Source: an uncultured Mediterraneibacter sp. | GTDB lineage: Bacteria; Bacillota; Clostridia; Lachnospirales; Lachnospiraceae | Direction of reading: 5' to 3' | Assembly (NCBI GenBank): GCA_944377745.1 | Contig: CALWFV010000041.1 | Span: 1-33,166 of the forward strand | Length of the DNA stretch: 33,166 nucleotides | In this document: piece after piece, positions 4,282 through 27,892 of the stretch | Layout of the letters: each line of letters opens with the position of its first letter | Position numbering within the stretch: the first letter of the stretch is position 1 | The notes under the pieces: model-generated | The model's database searches: none | What the model was told of the DNA's origin: nothing | What the model saw: only the letters and a program-made list of their open reading frames with translations | Program-made: the position numbers and the translations under genes

Positions 4282-4337
4282 CACATTTTTCAAAGGACTT
4301 TTATGTTTTTGCCCACATTTTTCAAACGACTTTTGTG
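4282..4337. repeat. Two-copy tandem repeat, 32-base period
   Basis: A 24-base unit beginning CACATTTTTCAAA occurs at 4282-4305 and again at 4314-4337. The copies differ at three positions within the unit. The second copy covers the last codons and stop of the 558-residue ATPase, so the 3' end of that gene has been duplicated. The first copy lies just upstream of the promoter for the next gene. Confidence 0.7.
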
Positions 4338-5998
4338 ATTTCCCTGTATTGAACCTCCACTTCCTTCCCCCGATGTCCAAGTCCGATGCAAAGAACCTCT
4401 CCCCGCATCTCTGCCATATAATCCTTTTCCACAATCTGATCCAGCGCCTCTTCTGCCAGTTCCCTCAGGTCTTTCTTCTCATCTTTCGTATACTTGAACT
4501 CCATGATAATATTGGCGCGCTCCTTCCGGCGTGCTTTTAATGCGATGTCGCACCTGCCTTTTCCCGCTTCGCGATTGCTTTTGACCTCATAATCGCGGCT
4601 CAGGAACGTACACATTCCCAGCATCATCATGTGATAGCTGTTTTCTTCCTTCAGGTCATGATAAGAGGGGAGCGTCTTCAAGATCCGCCGGTAGCCGTCC
4701 GTGAATGCCTCTATGTTTTTCTCCGTCAGACGCAGGAACATCTGAGACATGTTTCCCTCCCGTATTCCCAGATAGAATGAAGTCAGTTCACGGAAAGCGC
4801 GCATCACTTCCTGGTTCGGGACCCGGAGGATACATCTTCCCTCTTCCAGCACTTTCTCCGCCGTCACCATCCCGGAGCTGAGAAGCAGCCCCCACAGTGT
4901 TTCCACATCACTGATCTCATAATAGGAACTGTCCATCTTCACTTCCGTGCAGTACTCCCCTTTTTCGATCAGTTCTTCATATCCCGGGCGGAACGCCTCT
5001 CCCAGTTCTTCCATCGCGGCACGGATCAGGCTGTTCTCACCGGTATTCACCCAAAACGGTTCCAGCCGCTTTCTTTTCGCATAAGATATGACAGACCAGG
5101 GATTGTATATATGATCTTCTCCAAACCGGTATCCGTCATACATCTGCCTGACCTTTTCATCCAGTTCCAGCCCACAGGCTTCCAGCAGTTTCTTTGTTTC
5201 CTCCTCCGTAAATCCGAAACAGTCTGCATATTCCGGCGAATTGACAGTATATACTGCAAGATTATTGACCCCTGAGAAAAGATTTTCTTTCGCCACACGC
5301 TGGATCCCGGTCAGATATGCGCTTTCCAGAGAAGGATTGCCTTTCAGAAGACTCCCCAGCATAGCAGACAGGACAGGGCGTACTTTCCCGTAAAACCCCT
5401 CAACCATCGCCTGGATAAAAGGCGTATCGTATTCATCGATAAAGACCTTTACCTTCTTCCCGTAATACCATTCCAGCGCTGTACACAGCTCCGTCAGTGA
5501 CTTCGTAAGATAGAGGTTTCTGTCCGGCTTTTCCCTGTCCCACAGAGACTCATAGATCTCGCTCAACGCTCTGTTCATATTCTCCGGTACTTTTTTCTCC
5601 TCCCACAGAAATTCATACCGCATATACTCTTTTCGTACTTCTAATGCCAGAAAACTGAAAAGGAAATCTTCGCTGTCTCCTCTTGCATTTCCAAAAGACA
5701 GACTGATGACCGGATAGCGGTTCATCTCAGATACCCACTTCGTCCCCATGATCTCCGTTCCCTCAAAGATATCCGACGAATCTTTTGTGATATCAAAAAA
5801 CTCCGCCAGCATGGACATATTGAGCGTCTTCCCAAAACGTCTGGGACGGGTGAGCAGAGTCACCTTATCTTCCGCCTCCAGATATTTTGAGATCAGCCTG
5901 GTCTTGTCCACGTAATAAATCCCTTTTTCCCGCATCTCCCTGTAATTTTCTATTCCGATTCCCATCCGTACTTTTTCCCGCTGCTCTGTCAATTTCAT
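4322..5998 (-). CDS. AAA-ATPase-like protein with PD-(D/E)xK (DUF1703) C-terminus
   Basis: The 558-residue protein starts with the family signature MGIGIENYREMREKGIYYVDKT. A Walker A-like RPRRFGKT follows at residues 51-58 and a Walker B-like VFIDEYDTPF near 180. This is the AAA-ATPase_like / DUF1703 arrangement very common in Lachnospiraceae and Bacteroidetes. The C-terminus has the nuclease-fold motif GRCDIAL (D484) and IIMEFKY (E500, K502). No biochemical role is established for the family. ATG 5998 has GGGGTG 5 bases upstream and a good promoter at 6062-6090. It is separate in sequence from the neighbouring DUF4143 ATPase, though both combine a P-loop domain with a PD-(D/E)xK domain. Confidence 0.88.
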   Translation of the reverse strand: MKLTEQREKVRMGIGIENYREMREKGIYYVDKTRLISKYLEAEDKVTLLTRPRRFGKTLNMSMLAEFFDITKDSSDIFEGTEIMGTKWVSEMNRYPVISLSFGNARGDSEDFLFSFLALEVRKEYMRYEFLWEEKKVPENMNRALSEIYESLWDREKPDRNLYLTKSLTELCTALEWYYGKKVKVFIDEYDTPFIQAMVEGFYGKVRPVLSAMLGSLLKGNPSLESAYLTGIQRVAKENLFSGVNNLAVYTVNSPEYADCFGFTEEETKKLLEACGLELDEKVRQMYDGYRFGEDHIYNPWSVISYAKRKRLEPFWVNTGENSLIRAAMEELGEAFRPGYEELIEKGEYCTEVKMDSSYYEISDVETLWGLLLSSGMVTAEKVLEEGRCILRVPNQEVMRAFRELTSFYLGIREGNMSQMFLRLTEKNIEAFTDGYRRILKTLPSYHDLKEENSYHMMMLGMCTFLSRDYEVKSNREAGKGRCDIALKARRKERANIIMEFKYTKDEKKDLRELAEEALDQIVEKDYMAEMRGEVLCIGLGHRGKEVEVQYREITKVV

Positions 5999-22890: not shown

Positions 22891-23123
22891 AACGATGCCA
22901 GGGTCAAAAGGTCCAAGCCTGCATGAGCTTGCTCATAGGCGAGTGAAAGACCTTGGGACCCGCCCCGATATGAGCATAAAAGTGGGATGTATATCCCACG
23001 ATATGCGAATATTGGGGGAGGATTGTGAAAGTGCGCAGCACGGAACAATCCGCAGGCATCGCAGTTGGGGGTTTTACCCCCAACATCATTACCTGTGTTA
23101 TAGAATACCACAATCTCCCCCCG
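22891..23123 (+). ncRNA. Structured non-coding RNA candidate between murE and agcS
   Basis: The segment folds into successive stems on the + strand. GGGTC/GACCC (22901, 22957), AGGTC/GACCT (22909, 22949), GCCT/AGGC and ATGAGC/GCTCAT (22923, 22931) are nested in one long hairpin. A second hairpin is GTGGGAT/ATCCCAC (22982, 22993) on GCATA/TATGC, then ATAT/ATAT separated by GA facing GA. A closing stem GGGGGAG/CTCCCCC (23014, 23115) encloses GATTGT/ACAATC with GTGC/GCAC inside, and a 9-bp GTTGGGGGT/ACCCCCAAC (23064, 23076). The GA/GA step forms tandem sheared pairs only as + strand RNA. Short frames here are not protein-like. The raiA RNA family of Clostridia has about this size, but I cannot assign a family. 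A weak promoter (TTACCA, 18, TATATT at 22878) precedes it. Confidence 0.6.
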
Positions 23124-23291
23124 GTTGCAAAATATACAATTTTTCTGGACAAAGACCGGGGATTACGTTATGCTATGGGAGCTGCTCTATCGGATAATCA
23201 CTGCATCAGATATGTTACAGCGCTTTTCAGGCTGTAACTCAGGTATTGACAAAACGATTTCAAAATAAGAATGGAAAGAGAGGATTTTATT

Positions 23292-24695
23292 TTGCTTACT
23301 GATTTTATCAACGCACTGAGCGATCTGCTCTACAGTTACATCCTGATCATCCTGCTGTTGGGAACAGGGATCTATTTTTCGATCAGGACCCGTTTCGTGC
23401 AGTTCCGACTTTTTATCGAATCACTCCGGGTGGTGGCTCAGCCGGGATCCGATGAGAACGGACTGTCCTCATTCCAGGCGCTGATGGTATCCACTGCCTC
23501 CCGTGTCGGGACAGGGAACATCGCGGGGATCTCCACCGCGATCTGCCTGGGCGGACCGGGCGCGGTCTTCTGGATGTGGCTTACCGCCATCCTCGGAAGC
23601 GCGTCTGCATTCATCGAGAGCACACTGGCACAGATCTACAAACGCCGTGCCGAGGACGGAAGCTCCTACGGCGGACCTGCGTACTACATCCAGGCTGCTC
23701 TGAAAAAGCACTGGATCGGCGCTGCTTTTGCCGTCTTCCTGATCCTTACCTATATGGGCGGGTTCAATCTGGTCGCCTCCTTTAATATTGCCGACTCCTT
23801 CCGGGCTTACAGCTTCTTCAACGAGTCCTCCACACCGTTGATCGTCGGGCTGATCCTGGCTGTGGTCTTTGCGGTCTGCATCTTCGGCGGGAGCAAACAG
23901 ATCTCCCGGATCACAGAGGTGCTTGTGCCGTTCATGGGACTGTTCTATCTGGCGGCGGCGCTGTTTATCGTGGTCACTCACTATTCGCTGATCCCTCAGA
24001 TGTTCTCGGACATCTTTTCCAATGCCTTTGATTTCCGCGCCATCTTCGGTGGGTTCACCGGCTCCTGCATCATGAACGGGATCAAAAGAGGACTGTTCTC
24101 CAACGAGGCCGGCGTAGGCTCCGCTCCCAACGCCGCTGCCAGTGCAGCGGTATCCCATCCGGTAAAACAGGGACTGGTCCAGATGCTGTCTGTATTCATC
24201 GACACGATCCTGATCTGCTCCGCCACTTCCTTTATGCTCCTGTGCTCGGGCGTAGCTCCCAGCGAAAAGCTCAAAGGGATGCCCTGGGTACAGGCGGCAG
24301 CGTCCGAATCCCTGGGCGGATTCGGAACGGTCTTTATCACCATCGCGCTCTGCCTGTTTGCCTTCACCACACTGATCGGCAACTTCTACTATGCGGAGAT
24401 GGGACTGAAATATCTCTGCGGGCGCACTCCGGGGAAAGCGCTCCTCAACACCTTCCGCATCATCGCCGCCCTGATCGTCCTGGCAGGCTCTGTCATGGAG
24501 TTCAGCCTGGTGTGGAGTACCGCGGACGTACTGATGGGCTTCATGGCGCTGATCAACCTGCCCGTGATCATCATTCTTGGCGGTCCGGCAATCCGGTGTA
24601 TGAGAGATTATATGAAACAGAAAAAAGAAGGAAAAGATCCCGTGTTCCGGGCGAAGGATATCCAGCTCGGGGATAAGACGGATTTCTGGAATTGA
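23292..24695 (+). CDS. Alanine/glycine:cation symporter, AGCS family
   Basis: A sodium- or proton-coupled importer of alanine or glycine with about 10-11 membrane segments. The family signature is STASRVGTGNIAGISTA, followed by GGPGAVFWMW, SYGGPAYYI and GLFSNEAGVGSAPNAAA. I choose TTG 23292-23294 (LTDFINALSDLLYSYILI...), because AGAGAGGA lies 7 bases before it and relatives begin at this point. The ATG at 23271 has no ribosome binding site. The resulting ~467 residues fit the family. A TTGACA at 23246-23251 has no convincing -10. It is transcribed away from murE, downstream of the structured RNA candidate. Confidence 0.94.
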   Translation: MLTDFINALSDLLYSYILIILLLGTGIYFSIRTRFVQFRLFIESLRVVAQPGSDENGLSSFQALMVSTASRVGTGNIAGISTAICLGGPGAVFWMWLTAILGSASAFIESTLAQIYKRRAEDGSSYGGPAYYIQAALKKHWIGAAFAVFLILTYMGGFNLVASFNIADSFRAYSFFNESSTPLIVGLILAVVFAVCIFGGSKQISRITEVLVPFMGLFYLAAALFIVVTHYSLIPQMFSDIFSNAFDFRAIFGGFTGSCIMNGIKRGLFSNEAGVGSAPNAAASAAVSHPVKQGLVQMLSVFIDTILICSATSFMLLCSGVAPSEKLKGMPWVQAAASESLGGFGTVFITIALCLFAFTTLIGNFYYAEMGLKYLCGRTPGKALLNTFRIIAALIVLAGSVMEFSLVWSTADVLMGFMALINLPVIIILGGPAIRCMRDYMKQKKEGKDPVFRAKDIQLGDKTDFWN

Positions 24696-24714
24696 TATTT
24701 TGATTATAGTCCAT

Positions 24715-24891
24715 CCCGCTACAGGTGTCATATCGCAAAACCGTTCCGCTTTACCTCAAAGATTGGAATGTTTGTAACGCCAAAGAATATGTTCGTGCAG
24801 TGGCACTCCATATCCTTTGTCTAACAAACAGAACCAATGCTTTTCGGAACGCTCTCACTTGATGTTTTGCTCACTTGACACCTGTAGCGGG
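24715..24891 (-). repeat. Rod-shaped inverted-repeat element, copy 1
   Basis: Terminal arms CCCGCTACAGGTGTCA (24715-24730) and TGACACCTGTAGCGGG (24876-24891) are perfect. Internal stems continue inward, including an 11-bp stem at 24781-24791/24809-24819 with one wobble. The sequence is homologous, in reverse orientation, to the element at 26668-26846. Homology extends into flanks, to about 24702 and 24914. It lies between the convergent 3' ends of agcS and the DUF2000 gene. The wobble pair is G-U only on the - strand, which hints at RNA made from that strand, downstream of DUF2000. It fills most of the gene-free stretch 24696-25031; I see nothing else convincing there. Confidence 0.85.
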
Positions 24892-25031
24892 ATTACTTTA
24901 TTCAAAACGGAAGATCATTTGAGAGAGGGGTAGGTCCATCCGGCGGGGTAACAGGAAGCACAAAAGATGCTTAAAATGCGCTATTAAATCTGTGTTCCGG
25001 CTTATTTTTTTATCCGGACAGCTTCACCTCT

Positions 25032-25454
25032 TTATCGCAACAGTGGCATGCTGCCCGTAAGCTTATTGACTTTTTTCTTTGTACCGCAGATTGCAATGCC
25101 TAAATAAGACAATTCTGGCTCGGATGCTGCTCTCATTCGCCCTGCAAACTCATCGTAAGTTTTGCAGCTCTGTGCCAGATCAGAGAAATCAACTACTGTC
25201 AAATCTGCATATTCCGGTTCAAACAGCTTTTTGCGGACTGCTTTTATCGTATCGACATTTTCCTTTAAAATGGGCACAGGAAATTCGATAATCCCTAAAT
25301 GGGCATTTCCATTTTTGTCACAAACATCTGCACCAACCACTTCCGGCATGTTTTTTCCCAGAGTAATGCCCATGATAGCCGCGGTATTTGCTATAAGCCC
25401 GGGCGGAAGTTGTTCGTCAATTATCATAACACATTTTTCATTTTGTAAATCCAT
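25032..25454 (-). CDS. DUF2000 family protein
   Basis: The 140-residue protein matches DUF2000, a family related in fold to peptidyl-tRNA hydrolase 2. Typical stretches are KCVMIIDEQLPPGLIANTAAIMGITLGK near the start, then EVVGADVCDKNGNAHLGIIEFPVPIL, and a terminal YLGIAICGTKKKVNKLTGSMPLLR. It has no membrane segment. GGAGG is 8 bases before the ATG. It is divergent from the CPBP gene with a 264-base gap and ends towards repeat copy 1. Relatives often sit beside transcription regulators; the molecular role is not known. Confidence 0.9.
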   Translation of the reverse strand: MDLQNEKCVMIIDEQLPPGLIANTAAIMGITLGKNMPEVVGADVCDKNGNAHLGIIEFPVPILKENVDTIKAVRKKLFEPEYADLTVVDFSDLAQSCKTYDEFAGRMRAASEPELSYLGIAICGTKKKVNKLTGSMPLLR

Positions 25455-25561
25455 TTCTATTCCCTCCGATTACGGATCATATTTTACAGATGTATTTTTC
25501 AATATTCTTATAAAATATCGTCAATTTTTCGAAATAACTTCCCGGCTTATCTCACCTGTAT

Positions 25562-25609
25562 TCAGACTTTTGCCTCTTTCAGAAACAAGGCAGAATTATC
25601 CTTGTCCAT
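25562..25609 (-). other. 15-codon frame with strong ribosome binding site, possibly a gene remnant
   Basis: ATG 25607-25609 has AAGGAG 6 bases upstream and reads MDKDNSALFLKEAKV, then stops. A one-base shift at the stop opens further sense codons (LNTGEISREVISK), so this may be the start of a frameshifted small gene, or a leader of the DUF2000 transcript. The frame overlaps the rightward CPBP promoter on the other strand. Weak evidence. Confidence 0.3.
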
Positions 25610-25630
25610 AAAAAGCTCCTTCGTTATAAT
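25602..25630 (+). promoter_or_regulatory. Promoter for the CPBP protease gene
   Basis: TTGTCC (25602-25607), 17 bases, perfect TATAAT (25625-25630), about 80 bases before the first transcribed gene start. Confidence 0.7.
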
Positions 25631-25718
25631 ATATTCACAAAGCGTCACTCTCTTTGTTCCTGACAGCATTCAGGAATATGAAGAATTTAATCATCGGAGT
25701 TACGGAGGAAAATAGTAA

Positions 25719-26594
25719 GTGTCAGATAAGAAAATCGTATTACAGTTTATCGCGTTGACCTTTGGAATCGCCTATGCGACGTCGGGCATATTGATCGTTC
25801 TTGGGCACTTTGGATACAGGGTTTACGGACTGGTCCATTCGTTCCGACAGTTTGCAGCGAATATCCCTTTTGCCATCTATATCCTGTCTCCTGCGATTGC
25901 ATCCTATGTCATTCTCAAAAATAACAAAAAGATATCCGGGGTTCAGGAATGGTTGAAAACCGTTTTTTGCGTAAAAAGTAAGAGTTTTGTTTATTTTGTC
26001 ATCTTCGCTGTTCTTGTACTGTATTTTGGAATAAATATGGCGGTGTCAGGACATGTGGGAATGGCTCTTCCCTTTTATATGTTCTTTCTCTCCCTGCCGG
26101 GAAATCTTTTTATCGGCGGCCTGGAAGAGGCGGGATGGACCTATGTACTGCAACCCAGGATGGATCAAAAGTATGGATTTTTGCTTTCTTCTGTCCTGGT
26201 TGGAATCATCTGGATTTTCTGGCATGTTCCTCTCTTCTTTATCCCCGGGACCGCTCACTGTGAAGGACAGATTGATTTTTGGATGTTCAACGTTCAGGTC
26301 ATATCATTAAGCTTTTTCAGAGGAGCCATTTATCGGATAGGGGAAGGAAATCTTCCCCTATCCCCGGCGATACCACGGGCAGCTCACGGCAAAGCCGTTC
26401 GCTGTCCGTTGCCCGTCGGATGTCCGCATGTCTTTCCGTTTATGCTTTTCCATACCATGTTTAACTCCGCATCCTCCCTGTTCGGTTCTACAACAATGAC
26501 ATGGTCAGGAACAATTACCGCAAATACTGCAATGATACTCATTTCAATATTGATCGTTAGCGTATATGGCAGGACACAAAGTCTGAAAATGTAG
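25719..26594 (+). CDS. CPBP (CAAX/bacteriocin-processing-like) membrane protease with in-frame insertion
   Basis: The 291-residue multi-pass protein has the CPBP motifs: GGLEEAGWTYVLQPRMDQKYG (Glu136, Glu137), then IIWIFWHVPLFF (His169), then MLFHTMFNSAS (His245). Relatives act as intramembrane proteases, some in bacteriocin maturation or immunity. GTG 25719-25721 is the start, with GGAGG 10 bases upstream. Between GAIYR and FPFMLFHTMFN lies a stretch (~206-240) of Gly/Pro/Arg-rich, non-membrane residues that I do not expect in the family. At DNA level it holds two hairpins. The frame stays open across it and the downstream His motif is kept, so activity is uncertain. It faces the DUF2000 gene and is followed by repeat copy 2. 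Confidence 0.85.
   Translation: MSDKKIVLQFIALTFGIAYATSGILIVLGHFGYRVYGLVHSFRQFAANIPFAIYILSPAIASYVILKNNKKISGVQEWLKTVFCVKSKSFVYFVIFAVLVLYFGINMAVSGHVGMALPFYMFFLSLPGNLFIGGLEEAGWTYVLQPRMDQKYGFLLSSVLVGIIWIFWHVPLFFIPGTAHCEGQIDFWMFNVQVISLSFFRGAIYRIGEGNLPLSPAIPRAAHGKAVRCPLPVGCPHVFPFMLFHTMFNSASSLFGSTTMTWSGTITANTAMILISILIVSVYGRTQSLKM
26334..26421. repeat. Palindromic insertion inside the CPBP gene
   Basis: Two hairpins in series. GGATAGGGGAAG (26335-26346) pairs perfectly with CTTCCCCTATCC (26352-26363). ACGGGCA (26375-26381) pairs with TGCCCGT (26410-26416), enclosing ACGGC/GCCGT (26386, 26394). CGGAT occurs at both ends (26334 and 26417). The exact borders are not certain: the 83-base spacing of the CGGAT copies is not a multiple of three. 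Confidence 0.6.
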
Positions 26595-26667
26595 CTGTAA
26601 AGGCAAAAACAAATAATTGCTTCACCTTCCGTCTTTCTATATTTTCTTCCGTTTTGGATAAAGTAAT

Positions 26668-26846
26668 CCCGCCGTGGGTGTCATATGAGCAAAACATCAA
26701 GTGAGAGCGTTCCGAAAAGCATTCGTTCTGGATGTTAGCAGGAGGCAGATGAAGTGCCATTGCACGAACATCTGCCTCCTGTGTTACATCCATTCGAATC
26801 TTTGAGGTAAAGCGGAACGGTTTTGCGATATGACACCCACGGCGGG
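26668..26846 (+). repeat. Rod-shaped inverted-repeat element, copy 2
   Basis: Terminal arms CCCGCCGTGGGTGTCATAT (26668-26686) and their exact complement (26828-26846) enclose further stems: GCAAAAC/GTTTTGC (26689, 26820), CGTTCCG/CGGAACG (26708, 26813), TTCG/CGAA (26722, 26795), GGATGT/ACATCC (26730, 26786), a 13-bp stem (26739-26751/26769-26781) and GTGC/GCAC (26754, 26762). It is an inverted homologue of copy 1 at 24715-24891. Shared flanks reach 26645 and 26859. It lies between the convergent CPBP and acyltransferase genes and may also serve as terminator. Confidence 0.87.
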
Positions 26847-26878
26847 ATGGACTTTTATCTACAAACATATTTTTCTAA

Positions 26879-27892
26879 TCACGAAATCACTCTTCCCCAT
26901 TTAAACCTGTGCAGCAGCCAGATGCATCCGAAGGACAGCCCGGCGATCACCACGGTCAGCACCGGGACTGCGCCCCATGCCGGAAGGGCTGTTACCGGCA
27001 CAAATTTCCTGTAAATGTCCAGGAAGAAGATATGGATCAGGTAGATGCCGAAGGAAGCCTTTCCAAAGGCGTCGATCACCCGCCGTGCTTTCTCAGAGGG
27101 AGTATATTTCGCCCCGCTCAGTCTGATCATAAACAGGAAAAAGAAAACACTGGTCAGGATCATAAATGGCGTGCTGTATGCCAGCATCTTGTCGCTGTGG
27201 GCATTGCCGGACAGCGTAAACCACATGGAGGAGCCAAAGGTGATCAGAAGGCTGACAATCGAGATGAGTACCGCCATTCTCTGGCCCACCCGGATATGCT
27301 TTCTGTATTTGAACAGATAGTATCCGATCAAAACGTAGAAGAAATAAACCCTGTCACCCACGATGGGGATATCATAATAGAGCTGTCCTCCTGCCACACC
27401 GGCAAGATAGTTTATAAGGACCGCTGCGCTGATCAGGATCACAAACACCTTTTCCAGCTTTATGGTCATGTTTCTGCAGAGGACCTGGAAGAAAGGCAGG
27501 ACCAGATAGATCGGGATCATCGCGTAGAGATACCACAGATGTGCCTTGGTGGGGACATACCAGATCTGTCTCAGGTCATAGTCTCTTCCATCGTAAAAAA
27601 TATTCCATACATAATAAAGCAGGCTCCAGACGATCAGCGCCGCCAGAAACCGCAGCAGACGTTTCGCATGTTTCTCAAGAGGTTCTTCCCTCCCCAGGAG
27701 CAGCGCCCCGGATATCATAAAGAAACAGGGCACACTCACTCTCGCCGCCGCATCCAGCAGCAGAGAGAACGTATAGTCCGGCAGTGTGATCTGCCGGAAG
27801 GACCGGCAGTAAAAATTCGTGATATGGATAACGATGACAAAAAGAAATGATATCATCCTCACCAGTTCCAGGTTATAGTTTTTTCCTCTCAT
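26879..27892 (-). CDS. Acyltransferase family 3 membrane protein
   Basis: The 337-residue protein has about ten membrane segments and belongs to the Acyl_transf_3 (OafA/WecH-like) family, which O-acetylates cell-surface sugars or related acceptors. Early landmarks are NLELVRMISFLFVIVIHITNF (the His is the proposed catalytic residue), VSVPCFFMISGALLLGRE, AHLWYLYAMIPIYLVLPFF and the C-terminal KASFGIYLIHIFFLDI. AGGGG is 9 bases before the ATG. It follows the Y-family polymerase gene by 30 bases. The acceptor is unknown. Confidence 0.92.
   Translation of the reverse strand: MRGKNYNLELVRMISFLFVIVIHITNFYCRSFRQITLPDYTFSLLLDAAARVSVPCFFMISGALLLGREEPLEKHAKRLLRFLAALIVWSLLYYVWNIFYDGRDYDLRQIWYVPTKAHLWYLYAMIPIYLVLPFFQVLCRNMTIKLEKVFVILISAAVLINYLAGVAGGQLYYDIPIVGDRVYFFYVLIGYYLFKYRKHIRVGQRMAVLISIVSLLITFGSSMWFTLSGNAHSDKMLAYSTPFMILTSVFFFLFMIRLSGAKYTPSEKARRVIDAFGKASFGIYLIHIFFLDIYRKFVPVTALPAWGAVPVLTVVIAGLSFGCIWLLHRFKWGRVIS

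Follow-up and report, generated by a model that had tools for sequence, protein, structure and literature searches.

A candidate mobile palindromic element at converging gene ends in Mediterraneibacter

Introduction

Two long, rod-shaped inverted repeats face each other across a two-gene islet in a 33,166-bp stretch of an uncultured Mediterraneibacter sp. (contig CALWFV010000041.1; the whole stretch is called the window below), and we report here a sequence-based analysis of these rods, their relatives and the places they occupy. The closest known kind of element is found among the repetitive extragenic palindromes (REPs) with their inverted doublets (REPINs) and the miniature inverted-repeat transposable elements (MITEs), REPINs being nearest.

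MITEs, which include ERIC, BOX and RUP, are short non-coding elements with terminal inverted repeats and no open reading frame (ORF) that are moved in trans, and integron attC sites are folded single-strand sites with variable arms that lie just after stop codons. The papers cited here and below enter through excerpts. As far as these go, REPs are 20-40 bp long with a GTAG or CGTC tag (PMC3116915, PMC3733652) and favour sites downstream of genes, between convergent or unidirectional genes (PMC3733652), and REPINs are inverted doublets with compensatory hairpin changes (PMC3116915). Tn3-derived inverted-repeat miniature elements (TIMEs) have Tn3-related ends, often with flanking direct repeats, and in their composites (TIME-COMPs) two miniature elements bound intervening genes (PMC13367494). 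MRSC-65-2 is a multi-copy structured motif judged to be selfish and possibly relevant as DNA (PMC11109978).

Set against these excerpts, the rods resemble REPs and REPINs in being dispersed extragenic palindromes that form inverted doublets (41 of 41 pairs, a tandem pair in the genus of genome G756 excepted), share with them compensatory hairpin changes and sites often located between convergent genes, and differ from REPs in their length of about 180 to 330 bp, their conserved internal loop, the lack of a constant tag and the way their units abut stop codons. They may also differ from the REPs that flank REP-associated tyrosine transposases (RAYTs): six Y1 transposase places, read with 1.5 kb on either side, were free of rod cores, but the only match in the complete genome G028 is about 2.1 kb from a rod pair. 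Since the GTAG/CGTC tag is not a constant feature of the rods and a link to a RAYT is no more than a possibility, the rods are not filed as REP or REPIN. Like MITEs, rod units are non-coding, carry terminal inverted repeats and occur in several copies. Unlike them, they comprise two rods around a terminator-like hairpin (two units folded), have arms that are locus-specific yet paired, and show no target duplication (21 G028 units) and no parent insertion sequence (IS) in the loci read, the ends not having been searched genome-wide. The window rods bound intervening genes as the TIME-COMPs of the excerpt do, but no direct repeats flank the 21 G028 units and 36 of 41 rod pairs are too close for a gene. 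Like attC sites, rods fold, adjoin stops and have variable arms; unlike them, they face each other and conserve their core sequence. The rod core also differs from the UYCCGG repeat of MRSC-65-2, and the excerpt of PMC11109978 contains no mention of Ruminococc-, Lachnospir- or Blautia.

Results and discussion

We read the two copies in the window as two halves, turned towards each other, of a non-autonomous mobile palindromic element, a reading to which we give a probability of about two in three. The 2.18 kb they enclose and occupy looks like a mobile unit between converging genes, with a DUF2000 and a CPBP gene as variable cargo. The segment and its rods are as follows.

24696 to 26878, no strand: whole segment, read as an insertion; 2183 bp between the stops of two convergent genes
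24702 to 24914, minus strand: rod copy 1; core model match 24730-24876; the strand is the one that matches covariance model R2 (below), folds more stably and reads outward from the islet
26645 to 26859, plus strand: rod copy 2; core model match 26683-26831; strand assigned as for copy 1, outward from the islet

The window's two longest inverted matches both join these copies (24821-24914 with 26645-26738, 94 nt, 89%; 24702-24778 with 26783-26859, 77 nt, 88%). The original prediction of two homologous, inverted copies therefore stands, but it drew their ends too short on the islet side, as homology runs to 24914 and from 26645. Each copy folds as one rod, with z-scores of -8.3 (copy 1, plus strand) and -14.9 (copy 2, minus strand) against dinucleotide shuffles, 0 of 200 of which were equally stable. 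The common structure of the two holds 68 shared pairs, of which 56 are identical, 10 are changed on both sides, 2 on one side and none is broken. The pairing agreement between both copies is far above chance, and the ten pairs altered on both sides bear out the compensatory stem changes noticed at first inspection. The loops singled out as kept are indeed conserved, but unpaired columns overall show no stronger conservation than paired columns: over the aligned stretch including flanks, 14 of 69 unpaired and 22 of 136 paired columns differ. No Rfam family reached its gathering score on the window rods, and a lax search of five loci returned weak matches to unrelated families. Literature searches, whose partial journal coverage makes this weak evidence of absence, yielded no published description of the rod family that we recognised. 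Both results agree with the earlier statement that no described family fits. The prediction of a conserved structured element held, and the first interpretation as a whole is partly supported.

Across this family, a rod is a long imperfect hairpin of about 180 to 330 bp with a conserved core and a conserved internal loop. Written on the more stable strand, the core is approximately GRAGCGUUCCGAAUA ... GUUAG - tip hairpin - GUUACA ... GAUGAGGUARAGCG. Two more distant genera, those of genomes G129 and G250, share the core strands GUUCCGAAUA and GAUGAGGUARAGCG, together with GUUAG or GUUGG and a strand similar to GUUACA. For 28 core pairs, 96.7% of 1005 cells are paired, against 79.9% after shuffling. 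The covariation score is 0.461 against 0.164 for shuffled alignments and was reached in 0 of 500 shuffles, a count that is not a probability because the set consists of 36 related sequences; when partners were slid by 1 to 3 columns, the score was at most 0.118. The outer arms are locus-specific, with a mean left-arm identity of 0.35 between representatives, yet they stay paired: the binding energy of the outer 40-nt arms is -38.5 kcal/mol with the own partner versus -15.0 with foreign partners, and the own partner is the best binder in 42 of 47 representatives. Stem sequence is thus free and stem pairing is kept. As to the unit ends, many in G028 carry GTAG and others GTAT, and those of the group of M. 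surreyensis and M. intestinigallinarum are AATTCGTGTTTGTT or close variants.

A DNA search of related genomes, in which at most 8 candidates per genome were scored, gave matches in 37 of 99, none of them outside the window's genus (1 of 38 genera). Scanning named contigs for the rod pattern yielded 103 stretches under the names Mediterraneibacter, Lachnoclostridium, uncultured Ruminococcus, Lachnospiraceae or Eubacteriales, and by label many come from chicken-gut assemblies. A phage or plasmid origin was considered and set aside: no viral contig had the exact rod pattern, and one G028 unit had no plasmid match. A first covariance model (R1) matched 3 of 200 genomes of the family Lachnospiraceae. 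The broader model R2, built from 31 elements on the more stable strand and run with strict filters, matched 7 of 392 genomes over the order (3 of 173 genera, one of them through a 34-position match with E 0.005 that is probably chance) and 9 of 397 genomes over the family (7 of 334 genera). The training set had included three of these seven genera (that of the window and the genera of G129 and G250); the four others gave 1 to 7 matches each, the weakest with E 2e-8. Within one genus, R1 matches in six whole genomes numbered 5, 66, 36, 8, 9 and 1, with 5 in the window's genome, 66 in the complete G028, 36 in G004 and 1 in the complete G018.

Two minor observations concern where individual rods lie. 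A rod fragment stands at the end of an unannotated faecal virome scaffold (MT838801.1; L316, 4767-4852), and masked-base runs adjoin the rods of G756, which belongs to another genus (L296-L301).

Of the 41 neighbouring pairs spaced by less than 2.5 kb, all 41 consist of facing rods, a few places being counted twice (for example L007 and L065). The gap between cores is 85 to 222 bp in 36 of these pairs; the five longer ones are L034 and the window-locus orthologues L007, L065, L103 and L119, and longer core gaps are present in G028 too. A unit without cargo measures about 0.67 to 0.88 kb, and ordinary units have no ORF. In two units folded, one each from G028 and M. surreyensis, the spacer contains a strong hairpin (z -11.9 and -10.5) flanked by A and T runs, which looks like a bidirectional terminator. 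The content of the window's own spacer is as follows.

24915 to 26644, no strand: spacer with cargo genes; content varies between species at the window locus
25032 to 25454, minus strand: cargo gene, DUF2000 protein of 140 aa (PF09391, E 3.1e-44)
25719 to 26594, plus strand: cargo gene, CPBP/Rce1-like protein of 291 aa (PF02517, weak: E 9.4e-5, 23.1 bits against a cut-off of 22.4)

In place of the window's DUF2000 and CPBP genes, relatives have at this locus RelB/ParE and DUF2000 genes (L103, families tested), ORFs at matching places (L119), a lone CPBP-like gene that misses the cut-off of its family (L065, which is also the place of L007), one rod with an ORF that by eye resembles a CPBP remnant (L008), or a short pair without genes (L009/L132 and L010). 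This varied gene content at orthologous places means that the rods persist while the cargo changes, and since the cores of 36 of 41 facing pairs stand no more than 222 bp apart, the most suitable reading of the islet is later cargo at this locus and not defining content. The same data bear on a cargo-bearing composite in which rods move genes, as in TIME-COMPs. Such a composite would account for the CPBP, DUF2000 and RelB/ParE genes between rods and for one Rpn gene of G028, 6 of 6 copies of which lie within 300 bp of a rod core, but with the window-locus cargo changing while the rods stay in place we consider it quite unlikely. If the rods are instead the facing halves of a mobile palindromic element, the window unit would be an old one whose two rods have diverged and whose spacer the DUF2000 and CPBP genes have entered.

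The window segment is bounded by the ends of two ORFs, that of the symporter gene at 24695 and that of the acyltransferase gene, on the minus strand, at 26879.

23271 to 24695, plus strand: left flanking gene, sodium:alanine symporter family (PF01235, E 9.9e-158)
26879 to 27892, minus strand: right flanking gene, acyltransferase (PF01757, E 1.2e-38)

Units of the family often have this placement. Among 62 unit edges of G028, located by their end sequence (three more motif matches without it were dropped), an ORF stop lies nearby in 52 and overlaps or touches the end (distance -2 to 0) in 32, ORFs being called simply as at least 60 open codons; the unit's first bases often complete a TAA or TGA stop. 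In the group of M. surreyensis and M. intestinigallinarum, 20 of 29 edges are at -3 to +4 relative to a stop, a distance shared by 93 of 3927 positions taken anywhere in related loci and by 128 of 4000 intergenic positions with rods left out. For the 90 units with both neighbours called, the flanking genes are convergent in 49, in tandem in 32 and divergent in 9.

For three unit places, other species of the genus have an empty site. At the window locus of G023, the symporter and acyltransferase stops are 3 bp apart with no unit between them, and at that of G003 only a palindrome of about 55 bp is seen by eye between both stops. One G028 locus is empty in G040 and G027 and a second in G050, G030 and G039; at these two loci, the ones searched successfully, the sequences align straight across the junction, with no more than a few tens of additional bases. 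The proposal that the rods are the ends of a mobile cassette is thus upheld only in that the whole segment is absent at the same place in relatives. Under the reading of the rods as halves of a mobile element, a trans-acting enzyme would recognise the folded single strand, move the unit and insert it where two genes converge; the unit would be tolerated or kept, landing between converging 3' ends and giving both genes a shared 3' end. We tentatively go further, at odds clearly below even, and suggest a new class of mobile element with a folded single strand (RNA or DNA) as its working form, which would insert precisely at the junction of convergent stops, complete a stop codon with its own first bases and act as a portable two-way 3' end that insulates the transcription of each gene.

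The units have not kept a fixed orientation. Between M. surreyensis and M. intestinigallinarum the unit is inverted at 3 of 4 shared loci (L067/L038, L089/L099 and L131/L046) and has the same orientation at L073/L068, and a fifth unit, L109, joins the flank of L101 to the flank of L036, two M. surreyensis loci. These arrangements suggest recombination between units or repeated insertion. They also fit rods that are folded single-strand recombination sites, comparable to integron attC or REP, with the islet as an exchanged cassette, as do the position directly after stops, the free but paired arms and the window-locus cargo that differs between species. We regard this as very unlikely, given that in 36 of 41 pairs the cores are separated by 222 bp or less, that the rods face each other instead of lying in tandem, and that no recombinase was identified among the cargo proteins, where no integrase search was made.

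Several observations weigh against mobile palindromic halves as the explanation. Fully 41 of 90 units are not between convergent genes, and the empty sites come from other species, not from close strains. Some orthologous loci keep the unit across many species, so presence there is vertical, and simple insertion leaves the opposite orientations and the joined flanks of L109 unexplained. Two rods of G756, in another genus, lie 564 bp apart in tandem (L301). In 21 G028 units there is no target duplication beyond the self-complementary AAATTT of the ends; the direct repeat is 6.0 nt for own and 6.0 nt for swapped pairs of ends and derives from that palindrome. Finally, no mover was identified among the candidates tested, namely IS630, Rpn and a Y1 transposase.

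IS630-type transposases are located in the spacer hairpin of two G028 units (L181, 1712-2983; L182, 1684-2874), and shorter relatives of about 200 and 120 bp occur in L183, L184, L185, L193 and L194, so that 7 of 15 G028 spacers are affected. IS630 was rejected as the mover, having ends of its own that differ from the unit ends and being inserted in the spacer hairpin. The 6 of 6 G028 copies of an Rpn/YhgA-like gene (PF04754) are 93-100% identical and lie within 300 bp of rod cores (Rpn-by-rod loci L180, L184, L186, L187, L197, L202 and L203). Rpn was likewise discarded, because nine Rpn loci of G000, G034 and G020 lack the paired rod motif and have single TTCGGAAC octamers only, in 4 of 9; G004, with 36 rods, has one Rpn match only, and that one is broken. 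Y1 transposase matches were present in 8 of 9 genomes tested, and a rod core was seen within 1.5 kb on each side in 0 of the 6 places read, of 21. The only Y1 match of G028 (L307, G028:C1:480655-481008), a lead to a possible mover, has a rod pair about 2.1 kb away, with an Rpn copy and a truncated unit end in between.

The search for a mover also bears on whether the rods are ordinary degenerate MITEs of a known IS, their arm complementarity arising from hairpin-templated repair without selection. Terminal inverted repeats, dispersed copies and the absence of an ORF from ordinary units are all consistent with such MITEs, and so are G-U and A-C mismatches at equal frequency in the outer arms (see below), as a DNA-level process predicts. 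Templated repair, on the other hand, would be expected to erase the asymmetric internal loops and the core that are conserved across genera, and no IS with these ends was found in the loci read, a genome-wide search for the ends not having been made. On balance we think MITEs of this kind an improbable source of the rods.

RNA folding favours the outward strand in 141 of 144 elements, which share ancestry, and in 48 of 49 representatives. A control fold without G-U pairs favours neither strand and allows single mismatches inside helices to be counted in the 49 representatives: the outer arms have 20 G-U and 21 A-C, and the core has 18 G-U and 7 A-C. The excess of G-U in the core and its absence from the outer arms place the strand bias in the core, and the outer arms look as expected from a DNA-level or two-strand process. 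The argument that G-U pairs give the direction of reading is therefore true of fold energy, but it derives from the core and is no proof of RNA; strand bias as such a proof was weakened by the control.

A structured non-coding RNA read outward from the spacer, with a protein-bound or catalytic core loop and with dispersal as a secondary matter, would explain this core excess and the better folding of the outward strand. It would also explain why more than one genus retains the core strands GUUCCGAAUA and GAUGAGGUARAGCG with changing stems around them, and why alignment pairs 43-149 and 44-148 are mostly UA or UG. The outer arms without a G-U excess speak against it, as do 1 to 66 copies across six genomes of one genus, unlike a housekeeping RNA. 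Promoter-like sites, too, occur about as often as in shuffled sequence (window stretch, 6 against 4.7; one G028 unit, 3 against 1.6), and the best of them, matching 11 of 12 bases at 24731-24703 on the minus strand, lies in the outer arm of copy 1, downstream of the core. We thus hold an RNA as the primary nature of the rods to be unlikely: pairing is maintained, and RNA function is unproven. The suggestion that the rods themselves act as terminator is not borne out in the window, where inspection by eye showed no run of five T right after the paired arms; the terminator pattern scan covered loops of 3-8 only and is blind to rods.

As a separate observation, the promoter-like match at 24731-24703 reads outward, into the 3' end of the symporter gene.

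If the rods are indeed the facing halves of a mobile palindromic element, tens of gene pairs in a genome would have their 3' ends reshaped by a repeat family of some gut Lachnospiraceae, and small gene islets like that of the window would be cargo in a recurrent insertion site. We know of no bacterial element that has the stop-codon junction of convergent genes as its target. The core conserved across genera and the arms, free in sequence yet paired, allow a direct test of what reads the fold and of which enzyme would place it so exactly.

Other features of the window

Upstream of the symporter gene, a Clostridiales-1 RNA (RF01699) was found at 22893-23061 with 130.8 bits. A 28-nt AT-rich sequence is present in two direct copies at 4282-4341, 89% alike and with a start-to-start spacing of 32 bp.

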